Positions 1 to 34,900 of a DNA stretch of 55,542 bases are shown here, in pieces. The notes under the pieces are model-generated. The model had not been told where the DNA came from. It made no database searches and saw only the letters and a list, made by a program, of their open reading frames with translations. Made by a program: the position numbers and the translations under genes. Source of the stretch: Pezizomycotina sp. ARF18 (taxonomy: Eukaryota; Ascomycota); the NCBI GenBank assembly GCA_002224055.1, contig AZLU01000153.1:1-55542 (forward strand). Reading direction: 5' to 3'. How positions within the stretch are numbered: position 1 is the stretch's first letter; every line of letters starts with the position of its first letter.

Positions 1-439
1 AAAAGTAAGTTATTATTTCTTAACTATATATTTAGAGTAAGTTTTTTTTTTATATTTTAAAGAAAAATTAATACAAATTAAATTAATAATAAAAAATTAA
101 ATTATCATAATTATTAATTTAATATATTCTAAATAATCATATTATTTTATATCTTTATAAATAATTTTTTAAAAGAAACGTTACTATATTTATCTTAGCT
201 ATTATATATTAATCTTTTATTTTAAAAATATATTAGAAAAATAAATAAACTATGAAATTATATTCTTTATAGCTTTAATATAATTAGATTTAAATTAGGT
301 TAGATTAAGATCTAAATCTTTTAATCTTTACTAAAATTAGGATAGTAGAATAGAAAGAATTTATTAAAAATTTCGTCTTAGCTTATAGAATTTTAGTTAA
401 AACTTTAATTCTTTATTATAGGCTCTTATTATCTCTTAT

Positions 440-1390
440 ATATATAATCTCTCTATAAAACTATTTAATACCGTTATAGACGTTCTAAATTATATTAACT
501 ATTTAATAAAACTTTATTTTTATACGTATTTAGCTTAAAGAAGCCTATTTATAGTATTTTTAAAATATTTTAATTATATAAAGCTATTAGCTATAGGTAG
601 ACGTTATATAAACGGGTTTATTATATAGCTTTATAGCTCTAAAAGATATCTTTATAACTTTTAAAAATATTCTATATAAAATATTACATATTAGTATTAA
701 GTATTAAAATTATAAAAATAAAAATTAATAATATTAAATTTTTTATTAGTCTACTAAAGAACGATAGTTGCTATAAATACTAATTATAAAATTTTCTAGT
801 AAAAAGAGATACAGAAGTAAATAAAAAAATAGATAGACTCTAATTTTTATTTAGTTTTTTAGATTTTAAAAACTAAGCTAAAGTTAAATTTTATTAAATT
901 AATAAATTTTTAATATATTTTAAGAGTTAAAAGATACTTCCGCCTTCTCACTTATTAAATCTCTCTAAATAAGAAATTAAATAAAACTAGAGTTTATTAC
1001 TTTTTTATCTACTTCTATTTATTTTCTTTTATTAAAGAATTCTATAACCGATATCTATTTTTTAATAAGCTAATTATAAAGATTTAATAATTAGTTTAAT
1101 ACTATACTTAATATTATAATATCTATAAAAAGATATTCTAAACTATAAATATCTCTAAAGCTAATAAAGTTATTTTTAAAGCTATATAATAAAACCCGTT
1201 TATATAGCGTACCTATAATAATAGCCTTTATATAATTAAAAATATTTTAAAAATACATAAATAGCTTCTTTAAAAGCTAAATATATATAAAAATAAGATT
1301 TATTAAATAGTTAATATAGTCTAAAATATTTATAGCGGTATAAATAGCTTTATAAAAAGATTATATAATTATAGAATATTAAGATTTTTA
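440..1390. repeat. Large imperfect inverted repeat, arms about 430 bp
   Basis: The reverse complement of about 960-1390 aligns with about 440-880. Matching blocks include TATATTAACTATTTAATAAA, TTTAGCTT(TT)AAAGAAGC, TATATAAACGGGTTT and ATTATATAGCTTTA, in the same order and at similar spacing. The centre of symmetry is near 915. The arms differ by many substitutions and small indels, as expected after independent mutation. It could be two head-to-head element copies or a foldback element. Confidence 0.7.
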
Positions 1391-2050
1391 ATAAGATATT
1401 TAATATCTTTAAGATAATAAAATAAAAATATTTCCTTTTAAATTTTAACTTAGTCGGTAGAATAAAATAGCTATCTTAATACTTAGCTCTTAGTAGATGA
1501 TAAAGATAGATTAGAAGGAAATTTTTTATTCTAATAGTCTATAATACTTTTAATATTTTTAGATAGAATTAATAAAGATATAAAGAGCTACGCTATTAAT
1601 AAATATAGTATAACGTTAACATAAAGAATAACGCTATATAAAAAGCCTTTAATTAACTTTTATCTATAATATTTTCGCTAAAAATTAATAAATATTATAT
1701 ATTTACTAGCTATAGCGACGCGTATAATATTATAACGTTTTATATCTTTTATAAAACGTTACTTTATAATTTAAAGAGATACTTTCTTAGAATAGTAAAT
1801 AAACTTATTATCTTTATATATTTATCTTAATTAATAAAGCTTTATAGATTAATAATAGATATAAATAATTCTTAGCTATAAAAGTATTATTATTAAAACC
1901 GTTTAATTATTTTTTAAAAATCTATAGTCTAAAATAGTAATAAAAGAGGTATCTACGTACCTATATAAATAAGATAATTATAGATTTACTTTATAAGGAT
2001 AATTATTAATCGTTTATAATAAAATAATATTAATAAGATTAATTAATAGA

Positions 2051-2150
2051 GATATAAAACTATAGTTTAAAGTTTTTAAAGTCTTATTTAATAGTATAAA
2101 ATATTTATAGAAATATAAAAACTATAGTTTAAGAGTCTTTAAAATCTTAA
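2051..2150. repeat. Short tandem duplication, unit about 62 bp
   Basis: A unit containing AAACTATAGTTTAA followed by AGT(C)TTTAAA and TCTTA occurs at about 2056 and again at about 2118 inside the AT-rich block. The two copies differ at a few positions. Confidence 0.5.
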
Positions 2151-2631
2151 AAATAAAAGGCTAAAGTATTTAATAATTTAAAATATTTAAAAAAATTAAA
2201 AAGTAATTTAATAATTTTAATATAAAGGCTATAAAATAAAAAGAAAGATAAATATTAAAGAATTATTCTTTTTTTAAACCCCCTTTCTTTTTTTTATAAA
2301 GAAATAATTTTCTATAAAGGATAGGCTTTAAGAATTATATATCTCTAAAAATAAAATATCTATAAAGATAGATAATAATAATATTTAAAAAAGTTTTTTT
2401 TAGATTTTTTTTTTTCTTCTATAGAGAGATATAATAGTAATAAAGAAAGAAATTTTTTTTAATAGTTTATTCTTTTTTTATTTTAATTATTTATATTAGA
2501 ATAGTAGTTATGTAGGCGCTAAAGCTTAGTAAATTATATTTTTTCCCGCTATTATTAAAAGATAATGCTCGTTTTTTGTAATAAGTACTATTAAAGATAT
2601 AAAAGATACTTTTAAAATTCTACTATATTAA

Positions 2632-2870
2632 AGAGGTAAGATTAGCCGATCTACTTTGTTCTATTTAAACTCGACTAGAAATAAAAAACCCGAATTAGGA
2701 AAGACCATTTCCTAAACTAAAAAAAGACGGGCCTAAAATTTTTTTTTTAAACACAAGTTTTTTTTAGAGACCACTTTAGGAAATTTTAATTTTAATTTTT
2801 TTTGTTCAAAAAATAATCAAAAATAAACATTTTATATTTTATTTAGAAAGATTAAGCGATATTTTTTGAA
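2632..2870 (+). repeat. Hairpin repeat family, copy 1
   Basis: The copy starts with a GGTAAGATTAGCCG word. It carries the core palindrome TTAGGAAAGACCATTTCCTAA at 2695-2715, then AAAAAGACGGGCC and a T-run, a GAGACCACTTTAGGAAATT block, and a closing AAGATTAAGCG word. It is directly comparable with copies at 7437, 10662, 13055 and 13228. It lies at the edge of the RIP-like block, and its core palindrome reads TTAGG/CCTAA where other copies read CAGG/CCTG. Those are C-to-T and G-to-A changes. Confidence 0.75.
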
Positions 2871-2929
2871 TTTTTTTTTTGTACCCCTTAAAAAGAAGGA
2901 AAAAGTAAAAAAACAAAAAAAAAAAAAAG

Positions 2930-3490
2930 GGAATGAAAAAGGAAATTCTGAGGGCTAGCAAATTTCAATAAATCTTCAAATTGTGACGTCAAATTACCAG
3001 GTCCAACTTCCAAGTGTCAATATATTAGTTTTATTTTTATTTTTTTCGGGTAAGCAACCAAGCGGTGAAGGAAATTATTGATACACACAGAGCTCCCACA
3101 CCAAAGAAAAACCCCATACATTTTATTAATTAAGTACTAGTAGTATTTCTGAAACCGTCGTTTATTACACAACCAACCAGAAAGCGACCTTCAATCAAAA
3201 CAATTATCTAACCTTTTTTCTTATCACTCATCACTTTTCTTACTTTTATTCAAAAACATCAAGAAACGAATTCAAAATAAGTATTGACGGATCAGAACAT
3301 CAAGATCAAAAGTCAGCGAACGAACGAGTCCATAAGCTTCCAACAATTAAAACCGAAGAACAAGAAGCAACTTAGAAGATAAAATACTTCACGCTTACAA
3401 AAATATTGTGTTAAAAAGTCCCTGCTTTTTCTCCACGAGGTTGCGGCCGTACGACCAGTTATACACCCTTTTCTCTAATCCCTCTTAGAC
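2930..3490. other. Intergenic, no gene seen
   Basis: Normal-composition DNA between repeat copy 1 and the candidate gene at 3492. It includes CT- and AC-rich stretches that would fit a fungal promoter or 5' leader. I see no conserved element. Confidence 0.3.
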
Positions 3491-3491
3491 C

Positions 3492-4992
3492 ATGGCTTCC
3501 ACGTCTAAACGGTCTCGCAGCTCTTCAACCAGCTGACGGTGAGGTCAAACCGACAGTCCATCCTTCATCTCCAAAGCGTGCCCGAGTTGAACGAAACCTA
3601 CCCAACGTTTCCTCATCGTCTCCCGAAAAAAACCGAATTTCCTTCTCTATCCCGAACGTACTGAAATCAGAATCCGCTCTAAAACTCCTCAAGCGGTCGG
3701 ATCTACGGAAAACCCGCCAACCTCTTCTAAGGATATATCTCGGCTAGCACCGTCACAAGCCTGCTCACCACCGCCCCAGCCCGAGTTGAATATCTCGTCG
3801 AATATCTCGGCAAGATTCAAGAAATATGAATACGGCTAGTACCACCAAAAAACTCATCTACTGCAGGCTCCAGCGCGACGACAAAACACGCCACCGAGCA
3901 TCCCGACGAGCACCGCCAAGCCCTTCGACGAAGACACTTTCGCTAGCAGCGCCGCAAGCCATCCACCACACCCACCAGCCCGACGTTTGAAATTTCGCCG
4001 TACATCCATCGAACACTTCAACACATCAGGTTGGTTCGGAACAGACCCATCTACCACAGCTGCAACGTGACGACGAATATCTCACGAAATCTTTTGATGA
4101 GTTTGCCGCGAAGCCCTTCGATGGACACAACCTCAGCAAGTAGCGCCACAAGCTTGTCGGTGAAAAACATCTCACACGAACACAATAACCTAGAATAATA
4201 ATTCATACGACAGAACCCGAGGTTACCTAGGCAGTGCGAGGTAGCGGGATTCTTATTCCCTGATAGAATAAGCGGAGCTGCCAGCACCAAACCTGGTTTC
4301 ACGAATACGCTTCCTTCCGGTATCGAACTTGATCCTCGAATTTTCACCTTGGTATCGTCACTGGTGTAGAGAAAGTTAATGAAGCCGATTACGTCGTGTC
4401 AAGTTTCCCAATATTATCTTATATAAAGCCCGAAAAACTACATTCGGCGATCCATTATGTACAAGGTTTTGAGAAGTCTGCTTTGCTCGGCATATACCGC
4501 TCCGTTCAAGAAGGCAGATGGAACCATTGATCGCGCTTTTATTGCCTTTATTGACGCAGTTCCTGCGTGGGTGTTTGCAAAAACAGAGGGTGCTGCTGCG
4601 TTTAGGAAAATCAGCGGTAGTTATAATCCTATTTTGATATAAATTTATTGGATAAGAGCTTTTATGTAACTAACTGTTATTAGTGGCATAAGTATTCCCC
4701 TGCTGAGCTTTATAGAGTACCGCATGAGGCCATACAACGCCTAGAAGATTACGGCGAGCGGATGGACACACTCGATTTCGCGGAAGCAGGTACAGAACCT
4801 CAACAGGATGAGGAATTCGACGATGACGAATCCACCGCCGTTCGTCAGCTCGACGACGACCAACAGCACCTTCTCCAAGAACTTCTTCTCGGCGGCGCAA
4901 AAAAGGAAGCGCATGGATTGTTACAGAAAGCGATAGCTGGCAGGAATTTGCGAATAAAAGATTGGCTCTACACGAGTCAGGACGTGTTTTAG
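3492..4992 (+). CDS. Unrecognised accessory gene, frame-disturbed
   Basis: I do not recognise this gene. An ATG at 3492 opens a Ser/Arg-rich N-terminus (MASTSKRSRSSS). Coding-looking segments then continue on the plus strand across several frames: a Ser/Pro-rich stretch to about 3840; two related segments at about 3865-3965 and 4060-4160 that both carry an LQRDD word and an AKPFD word; a hydrophobic segment at 4457-4642 that begins MYKVLRSLLCSAY; and an acidic C-terminal segment at 4762-4992 rich in Asp, Glu, Gln and Leu that ends DWLYTSQDVF. The repeated segment looks like an internal duplication. Stops between segments may be introns, sequencing indels or true decay. The gene lies between hairpin repeat copies 1 and 2, so it sits in the repeat-rich compartment. 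Confidence 0.35.
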
Positions 4993-5284
4993 AAGGGGAC
5001 TTATTCTCCTTTTTCCCCCGTTTTCCACGGTTCTTGTTTTCCATCCTGCGGAATTGGCCAAGATTCGGCTTTTTCTTAATTTGGATCTTTTCTTCAGAAC
5101 TTGAACTCGACAACTTTTAATTAAAAATCTGGAAATAGACCTTATCAGAAAGCCCCTTCTTTTGTCATTCATCCTAAAAGTATTCTACCAAAGTATTTTC
5201 CCATTCTCTCCATCCAAGGGTGTTTTTTTTGCTAGGGATCAAAATCCACCTTCTCTCCTCATGGTCTAATTGAAGAGCCTGTCG

Positions 5285-5330
5285 CTTGGTATATGCCCTG
5301 TTGAGGGACACTTGCTCAACATATGCCAAG
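5285..5330. other. Imperfect palindrome / hairpin
   Basis: CTTGGTATATG, a short spacer and TTGAG are followed nine bases later by CTCAA and CATATGCCAAG. The outer and inner arms can pair to form a 16-bp stem with one bulge and one mismatch. There is no T-run characteristic of a terminator. It may be a protein-binding or folded RNA site in the 3' flank of the preceding gene. Confidence 0.4.
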
Positions 5331-6655
5331 ACACCTTATTCTGTCTCCTTTCTTATCTTGATTCTTGAGAGTTATGTTTGTTTGTTATTGCTAAGAAGCA
5401 CCTTATTATACTATTATTTATATGTTAGACTGGGAGACTTTCATTTTTAATCACTATTGCTGGTTCTTCTAGCCAATGAAAAACCCTCTGTACTTGTTAT
5501 TGAGATACAAAACAGAAATTTGGGTACTTCATGTATATAAAAATAGCACCGCGCAGTATTTACATCTGCGTGTCAAGAAAAAACAAATAAATAGCTAGTT
5601 TAGTATTACACGATTAGAACGAGGAATATCCACAATATATTCAAAACTCGAATGCAATCCTTCAAAATACAATATTTAATTCTAATAATAATAGTAACAA
5701 TAACAAGGCACGCTCCTGTGTCTGCTCCATATAGGTTGAAATTCTCTAGAATAAAGACCTCTAAGGGCACGCTGATGGATATGCTATAGGATATCGATAG
5801 AAATCCTCTAAATCTGGTCATTATTTATTCGAATACAGCAGCAGCATGGAGAAGAGGCTTTAACAGTATTCGATAGTAATCATGATTTGAATGTTTAATA
5901 ATAGCGAAGTTGAAGCTAGTAAAAACTAAAGTCTATGATTTATCGTTTTGAGTAGCCAGAATTATCAGCCTTTCCCCTCGTGTTGCTAGCGTTTTATGGA
6001 ATAAAAATATACCAAACATCTAAAATAAAAACAACAGTTTTTTTTTTGTTGAGCCGAATTTCGAGAATCATACACGTCACGATGAAATCCTCCTCGGGCC
6101 TCACATGTCAACGTCAGCAGTGAACTCGGAAAATTTTCCTCCTTAAAATAAACTACTTCTACTTTTTGCTCTTTATTCATCGCCAAAGGTTCCTTGCCTT
6201 CTTTTTTTTTTTCCTTTTCCTTTTTTCTCTCTTTCTTCTAGGGTTTTCCTTTTATCATCGTCCCTTCTTATTTTAATACTACTAGGTTAAAATTGGGGCG
6301 CATAGGCTTTTCTTATTATTTTGTAATTGAAATACGATCCACTATTTCTATTTTACCCTTAAAAAAATTAGAATTGTGAAAGTGAAGGTGTTTGAGTAGG
6401 AACTTCGAGAATTGTTCTCGACGGGCTACAAAACTTACATTGTATCAAGGATAGAACTTTTCATAATTACACCACTATGTATATTTTTCAAGCAGTTGCA
6501 CAATCCGTGTGTGCGTTTGCTAAGTAAGTAGTGTTGTAATGTGCGGAAGAAGGTGTCTATAAGTAACGAGTCACTCGCCATTGTTTCTTCGAGCGTTGAT
6601 AGTGGTCTTATAGTGATGTTTTGCCTTGTTTGACACTTACTTTCTTGGAGAGAAA
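5331..6655. other. Gene-free stretch
   Basis: AT-rich DNA with pyrimidine tracts near 6200-6240. Only short random ORFs are present. I see no gene, RNA or repeat that I can support. Confidence 0.4.
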
Positions 6656-6659
6656 CTAG

Positions 6660-6870
6660 AATACTAAATGTATCTTTAACAGCAAGAGATGATGGTTTGC
6701 AATAGCACGAGATGTTGATATATTACAGCAAGAGATGTTGAGTTGCAAAAGTACGATATGATGGTGCGCAACAGCAAAACATGATGGTTTTGGCAATAAC
6801 TTTTGATGATTTTTGCCGCTGAAAGATAGTTGTAAAACTTGTAATATCATGCGTTTCATCGCATATACTT
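6660..6870. repeat. Degenerate GCA/GATG repeat array, block 1
   Basis: Variants of a 20-30 bp unit recur: TTGCAA(T/A)AGCACGAGATG, AACAGCAA(A)ACATGATGG and GTTTTGGCAATAAC. The same words return at 7255-7390 and in altered form at 12600-12990. This is a degenerate, satellite-like array without a coding frame. The small ORFs on either strand across it are repeat artefacts. Confidence 0.5.
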
Positions 6871-7254
6871 TTAGTTTGTATTTGATGCACCATTTTGCGG
6901 TGCGATTTTACCTCGTTTTATCGCTTTCTTTCTTATTTTTTTAGAATAATATTATATTCGACGGTCTTGGTTTCGCTTGCAACAGCCTTCGTTCTTCACT
7001 TCTATCAGGATTTGGGTATATAATTTCCACGGCTTCCTAAGCAATTTTTGCTATACAATAACGTATATAGGTATAGTATATAATATGATATGTTAGTCGT
7101 AATATAATATAATAGGGTTGGGTTGTTTGTAGCTATACGATATTATAGAGTGTATAATAAAAAGATACAAAAGGTACTGAGGAAAAGAATATTTTAACGA
7201 GAGAAAATATTTCCTGGGTAAAAAAAATCTCGGGTTTTAAGGGTTATATTTTTG

Positions 7255-7390
7255 TAGCAGCATAGCATGATAATGTTCAACAACATTGGATGATCGCTTG
7301 CAAAAGCACGAGATGTTGATGTGTAACCGCAAGGCATGATGATTTCTAGCACAGCTTGTATCTAAAACGTGTGATATCATAAGTTATCGC
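7255..7390. repeat. Degenerate GCA/GATG repeat array, block 2
   Basis: The words AGCATGATAATG, TTGCAAAAGCACGAGATG and CGCAAGGCATGATG, followed by CTTGTATCTAAAACGTGTGATATCAT, parallel block 1, which ends AGTTGTAAAACTTGTAATATCAT. The block lies directly upstream of hairpin repeat copy 2, so the two families are physically linked here. Confidence 0.5.
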
Positions 7391-7436
7391 CTCACAATGC
7401 ACTTGAGTTTGGACTTGACTTTGAAAGCCACATTGG

Positions 7437-7625
7437 GGAAGGCAATATTAGCCGACTCTCATTACCTGAGCATTTTCAACCGGGCCGGAAAAACAAAAAA
7501 TCTGAATGAGGAAAGACCATTTCCTGAACCGTAAAAAAAGACGGGCCTAAAAATTTTTTTTGAGCACCGTCTTTTTTTAGGACAACTTTGGGAAATTGTA
7601 ATTTTAAATACTTCCGGGTGTAACT
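7437..7625 (+). repeat. Hairpin repeat family, copy 2
   Basis: The copy starts with GGCAATATTAGCCG. It has the core TGAGGAAAGACCATTTCCTGA near 7507-7527, then ACCGTAAAAAAAGACGGGCC (a second small CCGT/ACGG stem), a T-run and GGACAACTTTGGGAAATTG. The layout is the same as in copies 1 and 3. Confidence 0.75.
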
Positions 7626-7759
7626 CTGTGAGAGATCCAAAAACACCAATTGTTAGTGTTCTGCGGGCAAGACTAGACGAGGATTGTCTATAAAATAAGG
7701 AGTAAAAGTTACTCAAAGGTACAAGAAGAAGATACTTAATAGTCAGTACGAAAATTTTT

Positions 7760-8115
7760 AGAATAGATATATATAGAACTCTGTAAGTTACAATTTAGCT
7801 GGAGACGGAGAATAGTCCTGTACGGGAAGACAAGAGTAAGGGCACTTCCCGCTGGACAAAAAGTTTTTGTCTTAGCGATCTCTAAGGGGAGGTATCCCTT
7901 AAACCAGAATTCCGTTTGGCATATTCCCGGACAGGCTATATCCCTTACTACCCAGATGCCTTGTTCGCCCGCTTATGTAACCGGTAAACCCTCCTTCGTA
8001 TCATCCCGTACAATAATCGGGGCCCATCCCGCACGGGCTCTCACGAACACGGGTTTCGCCACTGGTCGCGTTTCTTTGGTGAGGCTCCCACGAAAGAGTC
8101 TAAGTTCGTTTTTTT
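7760..8115. mobile_element. GC-richer anonymous island, possible element remnant
   Basis: A 350-bp stretch of clearly higher GC sits between AT-rich flanks. It includes direct words such as CGGGAAGACAAGAG, GGCCCATCCCGCACGGGCTC and CACGAACACGGGTTTCGCC. It has no convincing coding frame. The sharp compositional edges suggest an inserted sequence such as an LTR or SINE-like fragment, but I found no terminal repeat or target-site duplication, so the class is open. Confidence 0.25.
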
Positions 8116-8169
8116 TTATATTCGTAATCCTAGGATAGATTTTCTTAGGCGAGGTCTAAAACTGTGCAA

Positions 8170-8200
<31 letters not shown>

Positions 8201-8609
8201 ATTTATTAATTAATCTGTTGATTGATAATCGTATACGTTATGAATGATAATAGTTTCGGCTTAAAAAAATGGCAGATTTGACTTTTGTTAGGGGAATTTG
8301 TTAGCACTGCGTATTTTTTTTTTTTTTTTTTTCTTCGAAAAGTTGAAAGTTTTTGAAAAAATTTGGGCCCTTTCATGGCAGATACTCAATAAAAAGCACT
8401 TAGAGGAGCGGACTAGGAGATAGGTCCATTGATTTTTGTAGAGTTTATATATATACATATATATATTATAATTACGAAGAGCACAGATCTTAATTGGATT
8501 AGTCAGCATAAATCTTGGCAAGATTGGTATAAATCACACACACACTCTCTCTTTCTTTCGACATTAATCGTGAATAACCGGCTTACGTACTTGGCTCGTT
8601 TCGCTTCTT

Positions 8610-8640
<31 letters not shown>

Positions 8641-9240
8641 GCTTCGTTCCTTTCTACTTCTTTCAGTTTTCCAAGAGAAGATATTCATTCAAGTCCATTA
8701 TAAACTCACAAACGTCCACACCCAACTTCATTCCGATAATTTCTCATAGACGGTAAGGCGACATGACATTTGATTCTCTACTTCTAGCGTCTAGGGATGT
8801 CATTATATGTATTTATCTTTGACTTCTTTCCCCATGAACAACCCTTTGAAGTTTTCATGTCCCGTTAACCACACAAGGTAATTGTCAAACCTTTGACTTA
8901 TTTTCTACACCACTATTTTCTTTTCCTTCTCTTCTTCGGGTTTCGTTCTTTATTCAAATTTCAATTTTGCATTCCATGATGGGTTAATAAATACTAGATC
9001 CTCTCAATTCTTTTCTAATGTCATTTCCTGCATGCTGATACTCCTCTTCTCATAGATCGTTATACCGGTTATCACTGCTTTCAGCGTCTTAGAATACATC
9101 GAAACCTGCCAAATCTTCTGTCTTGGGGTCAAGATTTTGAATATTTCTCAAAATACAGATCCCATATTGGCCTGAACGAAAATCACACATCTGGAGAATC
9201 TCCGCTCTGATTCAACAAGCGGATAAATCTGCAAACCGAC
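8116..9240. other. Gene-free stretch with long homopolymers
   Basis: Contains an A-run at 8181-8201, a T-run near 8317-8332 and an A-run near 8619-8640. Pyrimidine-rich DNA after 8800 could be the promoter of the gene that follows. I see no RNA gene. Confidence 0.35.
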
Positions 9241-10332
9241 CATTTCTTCAGAACCTGTTGCAAGGGAAAGATCTCTTTCCAAACGAGGAGTCGCCGCCGC
9301 ACGTCACAGCACAACCTCCCACCTACACCAATTCGCGGAATCTTACTCGGACGTAGTAACGAGCTTCCTCGCGTCTCTTAAGAAGTCCACATGGAACTTG
9401 CATCGGTTGGAAGAATTCCTCGAGCAGGAGGTTCATTCCCTCCGGAATCTCCTCGTCCTCATCACCAGCTACCTCGACCTCCACCCCAAGCTGAACACGC
9501 CGGCGGTGATCGCGGTGCAGCTACTCCTCGAACCAACAACAGACAAAGAATTCGAATGTATATGATGGGAGCAATGCCCAATATGAGGATCAATATGAGG
9601 AGGAGCTTGAAGTCAGTGAGCTTCGGCCTCTCGAACCTGCCTACGCTCGGCATGACCGAGGCAACAGTAACGCGCGTCGTGCAAGAACAGGAGAGGTTTC
9701 GGGATGCGGTGGCGTGTCGCCAGACTCGGTGGGCGAGTGGGATGCAAAGTTCATGGTTCAAAAAGGACCAGATTTGCGCCGAAGCCTCGGCGGAGGTCAG
9801 GTCGATAAAGCTTATCAAGGAAGGACTAAGGTCTCGGGTCAGCAGGCTGGTTTTGCACAACTCCGCGTGGTGGACGAAAGGCACGGGCTCCAGAAGGCTG
9901 AGGAAGCTGCCGATGTGCTATCATTGCATGGTCCGGCAGGTCGAGACGCTTCCGCCCCGCTCCCCGGATCCCTGCAGTGTTCCTCGGAAAGGACGAGTCG
10001 GGGGTTCTGACGTCGTTGGTGGTCAGCGAGGAGAAGAAGAGGTCTTTGTTGCATTACGGTCATTAGGCTTCACGGAAAACTATGATGATAATGATTCATT
10101 CGGTCTTCAAGTTTTGATAGAGCAGAAGCTTCCAATCTGGACATCTGATCTAAAGAAAATATACGTTGATAAATATTTGGGTTGCTGGACGGCGAATGGG
10201 GAGGTCAATTTATGGCTGCTTCAGGGAGACGATGGGAAGTTTTGGTGCATTGACGATTACAAACAGGCTTATCAAATGGATAACGAACTCGACGTTATAA
10301 CCGCGTTCTTACGGTCTTGTTTAGACATCTAA
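9241..10332 (+). CDS. Unrecognised accessory gene with conserved-looking C-terminal part
   Basis: I do not recognise this family. Plus-strand coding character begins before 9391 in another frame: at about 9355-9560 a leucine-rich helical segment reads SFLASLKKSTWNLHRLEEFL and on to HPKLNTPAVIAVQLLLEP. A long frame from 9391 to 10332 supplies the C-terminal part, which is the most protein-like piece (LRSLGFTENYDDNDSFGLQV, KLPIWTSDLKKIYVDKYLG, WLLQGDDGKFWCIDDYKQAY) and ends SCLDI. The middle part (9560-10030) switches frame and is doubtful. No signal peptide or catalytic motif is visible. The gene lies between hairpin repeat copies 2 and 3. Confidence 0.4.
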
Positions 10333-10661
10333 AAGAGCCGATGTGTACATCATGCTTATACACTTTTTTTTTTTTAGCTCGAGAATTACCCATCTGTGAT
10401 TAGGTCTGAACGCGGCATTTCTTCGTCGTGAGAAATAAATCAAATCGGCGCTATCAGTCGACCATGCTAACATTACGTCTGATTCTAAGAGATATATTGT
10501 CATCAGAGCTATTTTGTTGATAAGATCAAACAAAACACATTCTAGTTTTACATATCTCTATGCCGGTTTGGCTGTGAGCTGGAGTCCAGGCACCGGCAAC
10601 ATGGTGCTGAAATTTCAGCTTACAAACAGGTACAGAAGGTACTTGTAAAGGAACACACTGA

Positions 10662-10895
10662 GAGGCAAGATTAGCCGCTGACAAGTGCTCGACGTTTTAA
10701 ATTCGACCAGAAAAAACCAAAAACCGGATCAGGAAGTACCATTTCCTGAACCGTTAAAAAGACGGGCTTAAAATTTTTTTTTTGAACATCGGGTTTTTTT
10801 TGGAGACCACTTTGGGGAATCGTAATTTAAAAATTATTCGGCCCCAAAAAAAAAAAGATATTTTTTGGCAAGATTAAGCGAGGTTTGAGCGGTGG
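10662..10895 (+). repeat. Hairpin repeat family, copy 3 (best preserved)
   Basis: The copy starts GAGGCAAGATTAGCCG. It has the core CAGGAAGTACCATTTCCTG at 10730-10748, then CCGTTAAAAAGACGG, a T-run and GGAGACCACTTTGGGGAATCG, and closes with GGCAAGATTAAGCGAGG. The closing word resembles the opening one, as if the next unit of a tandem array began there. It immediately precedes the promoter of the gene at 11148. Confidence 0.8.
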
Positions 10896-11147
10896 CTTGT
10901 ATAAAAATCACGTGAGGTCCACGTGAGTTCTGTGAGATTTTTTAGGTGGTATACCTCATTTTTTAGCCGTGGAACAAACCTCATCATTTCCACTCAATTG
11001 AAACCTCCACTCGTGGTGTTTATTTCTTTTTTTTTGCTTTTAAAGAAACTATTAATTAAAGAGGAAAAGAAGATAAATATCTCCTACTCTAAACTTCTTC
11101 TCTTTACTTCAAAATTTATATTACCAATAACCAACACCAACATATAA

Positions 11148-12503
11148 ATGAGTAGAGACAAGGAAGAAAGAGAAAGGAACATGCTTCCTTCTCCGCCGGT
11201 AACCTCAATTACCTCGAACGAATTGTCACTTAATAACGCCCAGGACGATGAAACCATCTACGCCGCCGCTGAAGACATTAAACTACAACTATTCAAGTTT
11301 AACCTCAATGAAGCGCCAAAGAAGAAGACGACTTTGAGGTTCTTGGTTCTCCAAAACATCGACGCAACTTCTATTCTTCTTGATCTAAAACACGATCTAA
11401 AAAAATACATCACTATACCTCACAACATCGAGTATTACTCAGCTCCCGAACCTTATATCCTTATCACAATGTCTCCTTCGTCACATATTCATAATGTTTG
11501 TCCGCGTTTTCTCCGCAAGCTCGTTACTGAGTGGACGGCGAATATGGACGACGATATCTCGGGTAGGCTTGAAGCTGATAGTGGGAAGGTCAGCCTCTCC
11601 TGGACGGGTCGATCCTCGAAGCCGATGGTATCATCTACCTCCGTCCCGCCTCCTCCCTATCCGTCAAACCTGCTGAGGAGGTTTCATCAGCCGGATCATC
11701 CTCATCGAGAGTACCCCCGCTCAGGTTTTCCCCGACTCGTCTTTCCCATTGGTTGTAGCTGAAGTCTCGTCATCACAGGACCGGGAGGATGCAGTTGCAA
11801 AAATAGATCGTTGGATAAGGGGATCAGAAGGGCATATAAAACTTGGCGTGCTGGTGGACTACACTTTCCGGGGGGAAAAGTCATCATTTGCAAAGACTGC
11901 GAAGGACTTTTTGCCAAAAAAAATATATGTGCGTGCTTTTTTGGGAGAGCTGAGGGATGAGGAGTACCAGGCGAAAGCGATCGGTCTACCCGTGGTACGT
12001 ATTGAATCATAGTTGACAACTTGCATTGCCGTCTACTATCAAACATCATTTTATTCGCTTTTCTAAATTCATCTGTATAGATCTTCGATCCGTCTGTCAC
12101 CACCACCACACTCTCTAGTATCGTGATACCTCCCGACACCCTCTTTGCCGGACATGCCGAACTCCGAGTTCCGTTACAATATCTACGCGAATTGATTGTA
12201 GAAGCCGCGCATAGGGAGTTCTCAATCGAGAGAATTCGACTTGAAGTGCGATCTAGGAAGGCCAGGGAAGAGGAAATCGAAGCCGCTGCGGTCGAAGCAA
12301 CCCAGAAGAGGATGGAGGAGGAGGAGGAGGAGGAGGAGGAGGAAGCTGGGGCGCCAGCGCTGGCGATGGACCTGACCGGCAGAAAGTCTAAAAGGAAGAT
12401 TGAAAGTGACGCAGCCGCCGCTGCTTCAAAGGCTAAGGAAGAACGGTACCAGATTATTATATCCGAGGAAAGAATCAAGGCTAAAGCTAGATATGACACG
12501 TAG
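11148..12503 (+). CDS. Accessory protein with Uma2-like PD-(D/E)XK-type segment
   Basis: The ATG at 11148 follows a TATAAATG context. The N-terminal 160 residues are unremarkable (LNNAQDDETIYAAAEDIKLQ). After that, a frame break near 11620 and another near 11700 join EADGIIYLRP to FPLVVAEVSSSQDREDAVAK and WIRGSEGHIKLGVLVDY. The order aDG, then hydrophobic-VVaEVsss, then Lys and a following strand resembles the Uma2-like branch of the PD-(D/E)XK nuclease fold. This is inference from motif order, since the ExK spacing is not canonical. Exon 1 ends at 11994 and exon 2 starts at 12081. Exon 2 encodes IFDPSVTTTTLSS, a Glu/Arg-rich helical tail with about ten consecutive Glu near 12315-12350, a KRKIE basic patch and the end KARYDT. 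Hairpin repeat copies 3 and 4 flank the gene. Confidence 0.5.
11995..12080 (+). other. Intron in the Uma2-like gene
   Basis: The donor is GTACGT, the acceptor is TGTATAG, and the length is 86 nt. Splicing joins GLPV to IFDPSV in frame and removes the stop codon that ends the upstream frame. Confidence 0.65.
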
Positions 12504-12599
12504 AAAAGCTGATGTATAATAGTGCCCGTAAAATTCATTACTGTGGAACTTATCAACATTGGTATATAGATAATACCCACACTGGATTAGAGAGGACCA

Positions 12600-12990
12600 T
12601 GACTGGTTTACACGAACACGACATAATGGTTTTGTAGCAATATACTATAATCTGCATGCTTCTAGCAGCACGGCTTGTTAATTTGCTGCCACCAAATGAT
12701 ACAATTGTCATGCCGGTATAAACATCGCATGCTGCTACAAACTGATCTAGGGCCTGATTAGCTCTCGCAATATGGCATAATAGTGCTGGTCGATCATGAT
12801 ATAATCGTGCTATACAGTCATAGCATAATGGTGCTGGTAAATACCTATGCTTGCCTATATATTAACGTTACCAACTTAATCAAATAATTGCTACAACTCA
12901 ATCATATCATGTTTCTTCTACAGACCCTTTTCATATTATGCTGTAAATAGCACAGCGCATAGCATGACTGTTGCTGCTAATATATATATA
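12600..12990. repeat. Degenerate GCA/GCATAATGGTG repeat array, block 3
   Basis: Recurrent variants of GCATAAT(A/G)GTGCTGGT, CGATCATGATATAATCGTGC, TAGCAGCACGGC and GCATGACTGTTGCTGC occur over about 390 bp. They are related to the words in the blocks at 6660 and 7255. A TATATATATATATA run follows at about 12980. As with block 2, it lies just upstream of hairpin repeat copies. Confidence 0.45.
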
Positions 12991-13054
12991 TATTATTACA
13001 TTGCTTCAGTATCGATACAAAAGGACTTGGAAAAAAAGCCAAAAGAAAATAGGA

Positions 13055-13190
13055 AAGGCAAGATTAGCTGTCCCTAAATACTTTAATATTTAAATTTGAC
13101 CGCAAAAATTAAATCCCAAATTAGAAATATTGTTTTTTGAATTATAAAAAAGAAGCAAAAAAAAAAAAAACACTTTTACCTTCGAACAAA
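13055..13190 (+). repeat. Hairpin repeat family, copy 4 (decayed)
   Basis: The opening AGGCAAGATTAGCTG and the AATTTGACCGCAAAAATTAAA segment align with other copies. The core palindrome has decayed (TTAGAAATATTGTTTTTTGAA). It stands about 175 bp upstream of copy 5 in the same orientation, so the pair forms a short tandem array. Confidence 0.6.
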
Positions 13191-13227
13191 CAAAGATCTC
13201 AACAAAGTACAAAGTCTCAGGTAGTTA

Positions 13228-13340
13228 TCAAAAAAGCAAGATTAACCGTCTTCAATGACTTTAAGATTTCAAATTGGACTAAAAAATAAGAACCTAAATC
13301 AGGAAGGACCATTTCCTGAACTGTAAAAACAGACGGACCT

Positions 13341-13371
<31 letters not shown>

Positions 13372-13385
13372 GGGTCCGATAGTAA
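13228..13385 (+). repeat. Hairpin repeat family, copy 5
   Basis: The copy opens AAGCAAGATTAACCG. It has the core CAGGAAGGACCATTTCCTG at 13300-13318, then CTGTAAAAACAGACGG and a 28-nt T-run at 13344-13371. It is the last copy in the window; none was seen on either strand after 13.4 kb. Confidence 0.7.
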
Positions 13386-13510
13386 GTAACTTTCAAATGA
13401 TAAAAGGTTTATCTGATAACAAGCTTGTCGCACAGACGGAATATCCCGGCGCCTAAAATAACGAAAACGTCCTTGAAAAAACGGAAATCAACAACCACTA
13501 TTTTCAAACC

Positions 13511-31974: not shown

Positions 31975-34900
31975 GCGGTTGCAGCACCACCCTAACACTC
32001 GCTTCGCAGACGAAAAAAAAAAAAGCTTCTAGAAATGAAAAATAGAAAACTCGGATGTAGGTCACGCCACCTCTATTTATGCAGGAAACAGACTCTTCTC
32101 CGCAGCGATAGGAGATAGCAGCCCATAAAAGTACAGAGAAATACAGAAAATCAAGTCGTTATTGCCTTTTGTTGATACTGGAATATTTATTCTAAACACG
32201 GAGGTTCTTGAATTTTACATTATCGTTTTGACGAAAGAGCTTACAGGTCACAATGAGGACCTCGAATGTATATAAATATTTGATCTAAGGTATATATATC
32301 TATATATTTAAAAGGCCCGTCCCATTGGAATTCGAGGGGGAATAGTTTTCTATGATAACCCTTCACTTCTTCTCCCCGGCCAAAACCTCCCACAGAACGA
32401 AAAATAGGTCGAGGCTTGCTTGTCAACCTATCTATGCAGTCTAGAGAGAGAAGGAAAGTGGCGTAAGTAATGAATTGTGTAATTGAACCGTTCCTGTAGA
32501 CTATGAACACAATTAGTAAGCTAAGCTGGGTTCCATAAATATCGTACAGAATTTCAGAGTACGTATTTCATGTATAGTGATAACCGATAGATGCTTCAAG
32601 GATGTTAAAATCAGATTCTGTAGCCCGGTCAAAGGCAAGATATCATCAAGGCTCCAAAGATGGAAGCTATGCTGACCGTCGTGAGATAATGAAAAAATGA
32701 ATCATCATTTGAGTAAATAATATAGTGAGAAAAGGTTTTCAGGGCGGTTCTCCGAAAATATAATTTGGAACCATGGATGCAGAAACGAATCATGATTCTA
32801 ACTTACCATAAGAGCATTAAGGAGTTATCTATCACTATAAAACTGCTTTGTTGATTCCGTTAGAATATAAATTCATTTATTGCGTTGCAAGTGATATTTG
32901 CTCTGAATGACCCAAGACCCAATAAGATCAGTCTGCACAGTGATATCGTCTCAGCCAAAGCTTGGACATATGCTTGTCTAAAATAATGATGCAAATCATC
33001 ATGTGGGCAAAGAAAATCTCAAAAGGACTGGAGATCTTGAAGATCTGTATAACTCACGTTATAAAGTAAACTATATCCCATAGAGGAGAAAAATTTTTTC
33101 TTTTCCTCCAGGGAACCGGATGTTAGCCAAAAGCCGGAACACAATCCATTTTGATGTGAACAAGGAAGAAAGCCCTCTAAAAGATCAGGAAAGTCATGAA
33201 TGGAATTATATATAAAAAGTTTCTCGTCATCGGGAAGCCCGAATAAGACTCGTCATCAAAAATTTCATCACTTGGCAGAAGGTGTTGCGAGAAAAAAAGA
33301 AAAAAAAAAAAAAAAAAAAAAAAAAAGGTGAAAAAAGAGTGTGTGCGACCGAAAGTCTCATACCTTCTGAGATGCGTTAAATGAGGTGTGTTATCTGATA
33401 CATAGGAAACTCATTAGCATAAACCCTTTTGCTATTGCAATTGCTCTTCAAGTAATCAAGTTTTGTTGAATGAAGAAGGATCAGTCGGCGAGGTTTTCTA
33501 GGCCTGCCACAACAAATGCATTTCGGCTCATTATATGTCTGTGCCCAGTGCGTTTCATCATAGACTTCTTAATGTTGAACAACAGTAGCGGGTGGAAGGT
33601 GGATTCTATTACCTCGCTGTGAGCGGTACAGATACCCGCAATGTTGCACCAAACGCAACGTATTTTAGGAGTATCGGTTCTCAAGTTCGACATATCTGAA
33701 CCACGCGGGGGAGTACACTATAGTACGGCCGTCCAACTTAAGGCTCTCTTGGCTTTAGGCTTGGAACGTAGGGCCATGCAAAATTTGGCAGGGAGCGAGC
33801 GGGATTAAAGGTGCAACGACCGCCCTCGAGCAAGAGGAGATCATTATCCTTCTTGAAGGCGCCATATCCTATAAAGGTTTACACTTTTCCGTATCACTGT
33901 GTCAGCTAAACGAACCAGCTTTACTCGAATGTAAGGATCCGACCGCAATATATTCTTGTTTGGGTATGATGTTCAGAAATAGCCTAAAACTGTCGGCATC
34001 CGCTATATTGAATATAACGTAGGACGGTAATTCCATTTGCGTATAGTTGTTTGAAAATTGTTTCATCATGATAGGAATTTTTTTTCTTCCCAAGTGGTTC
34101 TAAGCAAGAAAGCAGGAAGAGCTTTCCACTGGGAAATATAGTTGAGTATGTACCATAGTCTTTTGTTGAGGAAGAATGGTCGAGTCATCCATTATCGCCC
34201 GAGGTTCGGGATCGGCTTGAAGACAGAAAAGTCAGCATTGAGTATTAACTCCGGAGTAAAGCCAAGCTATTATCAGAAAAGCAGACCGAAATGGCCCGTT
34301 TTGCTCTAGGGCCACGATGACGGCGTTGCCCAGGGATTTATATCAGACTGACGTGCTGCACTCTGAGTTTCATTACCAAAATATGTTATTTTGGCGTCAA
34401 AGACTCTAGTTTTATTACGGTGTGTTGTTCATCATAAGAGAGAGTAGAATAATTGTGTTCGGTTTGTCCAAGGAGAATCGAGAAAAGCAGAAGGGTTCGT
34501 TATAACCTACTTAGAAGACCGCACCAAGCGCATCCAGTACTGTAGCAGCATCTTGATGTAAAAATGCTAATAGCATAAACGACGCTCGCTTGCTAAGTAC
34601 AATGATGTAAAATTGATTGCGATCGTTAGTAACGATGCTGGTACTATTATAATACGTAGAAGTTCTTTTTTTTTTTTTTTTTTTTTTTTCGTTAGTGATT
34701 GATGGAGAAAAAAAATGTGGGAAGGTTTAAAAATTTTTCACTTCATTTCTTCGCGCTTTATACCTGAATTTCTCTTGGCAAAATTAAAAACTGACTTGCG
34801 ACGGCAAAAAAAAAAAAACTATAATTTGACAGCAAGGATTACTTCGTTGATTCTGCGCTAACAAGTTTTGAATTAAAAGAAAAAAAAAAAGGATGAGAGA

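Follow-up and report, generated by a model that had tools for sequence, protein, structure and literature searches.

Hairpin repeats in Pezizomycotina sp. ARF18 mark the ends of directional units that are probably non-autonomous mobile elements with differing gene-like middles

What is the hairpin-forming repeat that recurs in the first 13.4 kb of contig AZLU01000153.1 of Pezizomycotina sp. ARF18 (assembly GCA_002224055.1, 46.4 Mb in 408 contigs)? The window analysed here is the stretch of 55,542 nucleotides at positions 1-55542 of this contig (contig 153), and a reading made from its letters alone (the sequence-only reading) had described a five-copy, non-coding family, taken for a small non-autonomous element or for broken tandem arrays. 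We find that the hairpin repeat forms the 3' end of a ~2-7 kb unit and in many cases meets the 5' end of its successor, and that the window holds three such units head to tail, with the 3' end of a fourth immediately upstream. The repeats are probably the two ends of non-autonomous DNA mobile elements, ~2-7 kb long, with different gene-like middles.

The number five holds for the window only. A 30-base core pattern, searched genome-wide with up to 3 mismatches, occurs at 48 places, compared with 0 for the reversed pattern used as control, and a 241-base query made from the third window copy has at least 43 genome matches (40 of 64 candidates scored). The opening word is exact at 16 places genome-wide (control 0), and within the window in the third copy only. 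Members of the family are spread over 39 contigs or more; the core has no matches (0) in viral contigs.

Copies from other contigs are of two kinds: long ones, in which a T-run is followed by the GAGACCACTTT block, and short ones, which stop at the T-run and continue as unrelated DNA. Solitary copies of the GAGACCACTTT part are also present. Every repeat has a 3'-terminal module (GGCAAGATTAGCCG, a palindrome and an A-run), to which long copies add the 5'-terminal module with which the next unit opens (T-run, GAGACCACTTTGGGAAAT). We identified 27 5' modules genome-wide (0 control matches) and compared them with a 3' list made up of the 48 core places and 10 approximate positions from the third-copy DNA query. 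A same-strand 3' module lies 1.9-6.7 kb downstream of 19 of the 27 (1-8 kb range; 0.1 expected under uniform placement), upstream of 1 of 27, and on the opposite strand for 0 of 27. Among the 21 5' modules that lie away from junctions, 15 have a downstream 3' partner. Profile annotation of the stretches that were read gave 15 5'-3' pairs, on the same strand and spaced 2.0-5.1 kb apart, two of which rest on weak 5' matches (L039, E=2e-4; L043, E=7e-5). Thus, the units are directional, and the long copies are junctions in which the 3' end of one unit meets the 5' end of the next.

Long copies taken alone look like a single block of ~200-250 bp, as would suit a small (~250 bp) non-coding hairpin element, similar to a SINE (short interspersed element) or MITE (miniature inverted-repeat transposable element), with truncated copies. 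Truncation would not give modules that pair directionally at 2-7 kb, and this pairing rules out a stand-alone 250-bp element. The involvement of Pol III that had been considered finds no B-box match (up to 1 mismatch) in the five window copies, and Rfam gives no family at E<=0.1 over 2500-13500; an RNA gene or SINE was rejected on these two results, and the small-element explanation as a whole is very improbable. Of the earlier proposal, the non-autonomous, mobile nature of the element and the conserved palindrome able to fold are supported, and the small or tandem unit is not.

The window was annotated with separate nhmmer profiles for 5' and 3' ends (E<=1e-3). Related sequence is present at 2632, 7437, 10662, 13055 and 13228, in every case on the + strand, as the sequence-only reading had it, and the last profile match ends at 13,343, in keeping with its statement that no copy follows 13.4 kb. 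All features given here for the array are on the + strand. The 3'-terminal module of an upstream unit 0 (2627-2738, E=1.2e-20) has its palindrome at 2695-2715 and its A-run at 2735-2738. Unit A begins directly after it with a 5'-terminal module at 2739-2868 (E=1.2e-19; T-run 2739-2748) that includes a GAGACCACTTT block at 2767 (pattern match with 3 mismatches). Its cargo (3415-4989) consists of broken coding remains with weak coding-potential scores and no Pfam match in the scanned pieces. A subterminal minisatellite of ~23-bp units (AGCANGANATGATGG) follows at 6672-7345, in blocks at 6672-6790 and 7250-7345, and then the 3'-terminal module of unit A (7424-7553, E=3.7e-27; palindrome arms 7509-7524).

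Unit B has its 5'-terminal module at 7554-7690 (E=2.5e-22; T-run 7554-7561), a cargo at 9227-10332 with overlapping frames of 112, 166 and 316 amino acids (aa) and no Pfam family above the cut-off in the scanned frames, and its 3'-terminal module at 10636-10773 (E=2.8e-28; palindrome 10730-10748). Unit C opens at 10774-10888 (E=1e-22; T-run 10774-10783, block at 10803); its module includes GGCAAGATTAAGCGAGG at 10867, which bears out the remark that the third copy closes with a word like its own start. The cargo of unit C (11148-12503) has frames of 204, 111 and 140 aa and no Pfam family. Two 3' modules follow, an inner one at 13021-13126 (E=2.6e-13; profile positions 4-111 of 151) and the terminal one at 13210-13343 (E=3e-27; palindrome 13300-13318), which is the end of the array. 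The inner module, which had been counted as a full copy at 13055, is truncated and degenerate, lacks the palindrome, and has a fold z-score of 0.20 compared with -2.4 to -2.7 for the other four. The fifth copy does not have the tail it was thought to share; it enters a 28-base T-run (13344-13371), the outer array flank and putative target tract, and then other DNA. Of the blocks described as common to all copies, the GAGACCACTTT block is found in the first three only and is degenerate in the second. The observation that the copies punctuate the intervals between accessory genes proved to be the key clue: the accessory genes sit inside the units, and the lack of coding capacity that had been noted is a property of the repeat modules and not of the units between them. 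Window positions 1-2620 are very AT-rich (GC 15-18%) and resemble DNA altered by repeat-induced point mutation (RIP); this block presumably holds the body of unit 0, whose 3' module persists at 2627. The low GC of the first 3 kb, together with fungal snoRNAs, suggests a filamentous ascomycete that has RIP.

The ends of the units are ~60-90% alike. From the outside inward, the 5' end has a T-run of ~10, a GAACACC-like tip, a second T tract, GAGACCACTTTGGGAAATCGTAATTTT and, ~100 bp in, a word like GGCAAGACTAGACGAGG. The 3' end has ~23-bp minisatellite units, GATACAAAAGGTACTT, GGCAAGATTAGCCG, the palindrome CAGGAAGGACCATTTCCTG, a variable GACGGGCCT or GAGGTGTCT, and the A-run, with ~25 bp between the palindrome and the far end of the A-run. 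Minisatellite matches number 3.5 per kb over the 900 bp that precede 18 3' ends, compared with 0.26 per kb in the part of the window beyond 14 kb; a same-strand match was found at 15 of these 18 ends, and unit B of the window is without any. An extra truncated 3' module just inside the true end is present in the window (13021) and in L040, L053 and L045 (a stretch in which a 5' end was not found). Two irregular stretches were seen: in L002 a pair of 3' cores, separated by 98 bp, is accompanied by a 5' module on the opposite strand, and L051 has a reversed 5' module at 2312-2432.

Conservation of the hairpins was assessed in an alignment of 40 3' ends that excludes the degenerate window copy at 13055. 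Palindrome positions form standard pairs in 95.2% of cells, compared with 25-59% for slid pairings. The second stem (CCGT...ACGG), which had been described as conserved, is intact in 10 of the 40 aligned copies, and GAGGT or GAGGC stands there in 19 of 40.

The outer boundaries of the units lie mostly in A-run/T-run tracts. At the outer 3' boundary of 26 non-junction copies (at least two of which, L016 and L033, precede a degenerate 5' module, and one of which, the first core of L002, precedes another 3' module), A3+T6+ is found in 18 and T6+ in 23; in random stretches the two patterns have frequencies of 0.4% and 5.5%, respectively. Seven solitary 5' ends (L001, L002, L040, L046, L047, L054 and L058, the last with its tip missing) have an A-run of at least 3 and then a T-run of ~10. 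The 5' T-run is near-constant in length, and a C inside the run is common to L002, L019, L046 and L047 (three solitary ends and one junction), which suggests that the T-run belongs to the element rather than to a duplicated target. Interrupted A/T runs that are alike on both sides in L046 and L047 (in the latter, AATTTCTTTTT / AATTTGTTTTT) would suit target duplication instead.

Units are solitary or arranged head to tail, and in the latter case the 3' A-run of one joins the 5' T-run of the next directly. Among 22 3' ends (truncated ends excluded), mean identity is 68.7% in 9 same-array pairs and 71.5% in 222 different-contig pairs. In a tree of the same ends, two window copies fall into one weakly supported group (0.58) with a copy from C202, and other array mates stand apart. 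Because array mates are no more alike than copies from other contigs, the arrays look like the product of independent insertion rather than tandem duplication, and the broken tandem array of the sequence-only reading falls away. They look as if they arise by repeated insertion of units into each other's A|T ends.

The middles of the units are gene-like and almost all unrelated. DNA matches above 70 bits outside the end regions were not seen among 18 stretches compared. Frames of at least 110 aa from 12 of the 15 units gave one weak protein match (L053 with L051, in an HNH region) and four further matches, of L052 with other units, located near 3' ends. From the 18 stretches, which include three that are not closed units (L041, L045 and L057), 123 frames passed filters for length, entropy and GC content; Pfam recognised HNH_2 in three (in L051, L053 and L057), Trypsin_2 in one and clathrin light chain in one, and at least 118 of the 123 have no Pfam family at E<=0.001. 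The clathrin light chain frame, in L045, is on the strand opposite to the 3' module and is probably a neighbour gene. HNH_2 occurs at 11 places in the genome, four of them within 5 kb of a family member (on C5, C186, C202 and C27; lists compared by eye). Genome searches with the interior of unit C as DNA, and with its 204-aa frame as protein, gave self matches only, and the cargo of a unit on C330 matches itself and, close to its 3' end, has two further short matches that cover 132 and 73 query bases.

Middles of this kind might also belong to dispersed accessory gene loci that are not mobile, share 5' and 3' regulatory flanks, and have had their coding parts replaced or diverged beyond recognition. 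The gene-like middles, the fairly narrow size range of the 15 units and the recurrence of HNH_2 near members would fit such loci. The occurrence of both coding strands, the boundaries in A/T tracts, the end-to-start junctions and the near absence of protein similarity among the 12 middles compared argue the other way, and we consider gene loci of this sort rather improbable.

If the units are mobile elements, as we prefer to think, the ends would be cis signals for a trans-acting enzyme, and the units would insert at A/T tracts. The A|T boundary at an element end would itself be a good target, which would yield same-strand arrays. The palindrome may show where the mobilised strand ends, as it does in rolling-circle elements of the Helitron2/Helentron group, and reading past or between ends could swap cargo into the same end pair. 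Within this scheme, rolling-circle movement of a Helitron2-like kind is a tentative choice, placed ahead of cut-and-paste movement with terminal inverted repeats (TIRs).

Several results weigh against mobile elements of this description. No empty site was found, so insertion was not directly seen. For 8 of the 27 5' modules, one of which lies at a contig start, the lists contain no 3' partner. Taken by itself, the end word GGCAAGATTAAGCGAGG marks the ends poorly (23 places, compared with 9 for the control, at up to 2 mismatches). The paired percentage of the palindrome and its covariation show no excess over column shuffles (reached in 345 of 500 and 177 of 500 shuffles, respectively) because the palindrome columns hardly vary; the stem is thus kept, with no verdict between RNA and DNA. 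The inverted match between the two tips lacks significance (a score as high arises in 87 of 1000 shuffles) and is not specific to the unit (2769 of 5000 permutations reach it; 12 of 15 units, three with truncated 5' tips being excluded). The two cargoes tested (unit C and C330) have no resident donor gene, unlike ordinary capture. Codon scoring, trained on 23 window frames of at least 110 codons, gave higher coding potential on the unit strand for 8 of the 15 units and on the opposite strand for the remaining 7, with several within the shuffled range. The Helitron Rep domain (PF14214) had 0 matches in a search that recovered no control and so proves little. PIF1 helicase was found at two loci, on C154 and C257, and neither contig is in the family lists. 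RIP may have erased an autonomous partner.

The C154 PIF1 looks like a host gene by eye. At C257:26000-27700 (L060), an unbroken PIF1-like helicase frame adjoins another long open frame, though frames in this assembly are often broken; it is possibly of foreign or virus-like origin. Neither locus was accepted as a source of Helitron helicase.

The tip and donor results also bear on the possibility that the units are Pack-TYPE cut-and-paste elements with TIRs, either Mutator-like or hAT-like. Inverted tips of such elements would be short and diverged, and a target-site duplication (TSD) of ~10 bp, rich in A/T, would be expected. The layout of the two tips is similar and colinear (ACACC, a TCTTTTTT tract, then GGAAAT), and a few solitary units such as L047 have the similar interrupted runs on both sides described above. 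The tip match is neither significant nor unit-specific, however, the near-constant 5' T-run with a common C in four ends looks element-borne, and donor copies are missing for both cargoes tested. A MULE transposase domain was not found (hAT and other transposase families were not searched). We regard this alternative as unlikely. Pack-MULE and Pack-TYPE elements have shared ends around unrelated gene pieces, with cargo copied from a resident gene, TIRs and a TSD of 8-11 bp. Shared ends that flank unrelated gene pieces are found here as well, although without a resident donor for the cargoes tested and without a clear TIR or TSD.

The layout is nearest to non-autonomous Helitron2/Helentron elements; the class is unproven and we do not claim membership. 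One account describes Helentrons and HINEs as having boundary T-strings of variable number, T-rich targets, a palindrome situated 8-35 bp from the 3' end, internal tandem repeats and, in some, gene fragments (PMC4067079). Boundary T-strings, apparently T-rich targets, a 3' palindrome, internal tandem repeats, non-autonomous forms and, in some, gene fragments link our units to Helentrons, HINEs and DINE-1 as that account presents them, and the palindrome ~25 bp from the 3' end fits the range of 8-35 bp (PMC4067079). The units differ in that significant subterminal inverted repeats (of 11-15 bp) and Rep/helicase were not found, the T-run is ~10 rather than 2-5, and the ends are ~70% alike around middles that are almost all unrelated.

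Fungal Helitron2-like elements have ATTTT ends, 3' hairpins and multiple termini (PMC5148889). FoHeli1/2 of Fusarium oxysporum, as covered there, resemble our units in the A-then-T 3' boundary (cf. ATTTT), a hairpin tens of bp before it, a size of ~5-6 kb and multiple termini; they differ in having RepHel, a TCAG start and 12-bp inverted repeats, none of which were found here (PMC5148889). The canonical Helitron1 form (5' TC, 3' CTRR, hairpin 10-12 bp from the end) is not that of our units. Their 5' end is a T-run followed by a GAACACC-like tip, and the end-adjacent stem is the one that is seldom intact.

Integron gene cassettes form same-strand arrays of unrelated, mostly unknown genes, each with a foldable site (attC), and are moved by a site-specific integrase. 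The same-strand arrays of unrelated genes with a foldable site after each recall them; the differences are that each unit has two different ends, that single insertions are scattered, and that the host is a eukaryote. A eukaryotic cassette system, in which one end pair mobilises many unrelated single-copy orphan genes into same-strand A/T-tract arrays (integron-like, with a rolling-circle or unknown enzyme), is a speculative idea to which we give little weight. A literature search on the species, on orphan-gene cassettes and on HNH-carrying elements in fungi found no match by title or abstract; the family may nonetheless have been described before.

Should the units prove mobile, a single family of ends would have spread a variety of orphan genes through a fungal genome. 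This would be a concrete, testable route for the appearance of fungal accessory genes outside large Starship-type elements, and the poorly described group of non-canonical Helitron-like elements would gain a family that carries genes, has well-kept ends and lacks a recognised enzyme. The end layout can be searched for in any sequenced relative.

Outside the array, no frame of the window reaches 300 codons. Frames are broken in two genes named by Pfam, one Trm732-like (13.7-18.7 kb) and the other for an arginyl-tRNA synthetase (19.0-20 kb); TBCD, a name given to the former by eye, was rejected in favour of Trm732. These breaks are probably homopolymer errors, and the assembly probably carries base errors, so the lengths of the terminal A/T runs are uncertain. 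A cluster of three C/D-box snoRNAs (snR73, snR75 and Afu_513) lies inside 1 kb on the - strand at 32609-33565.

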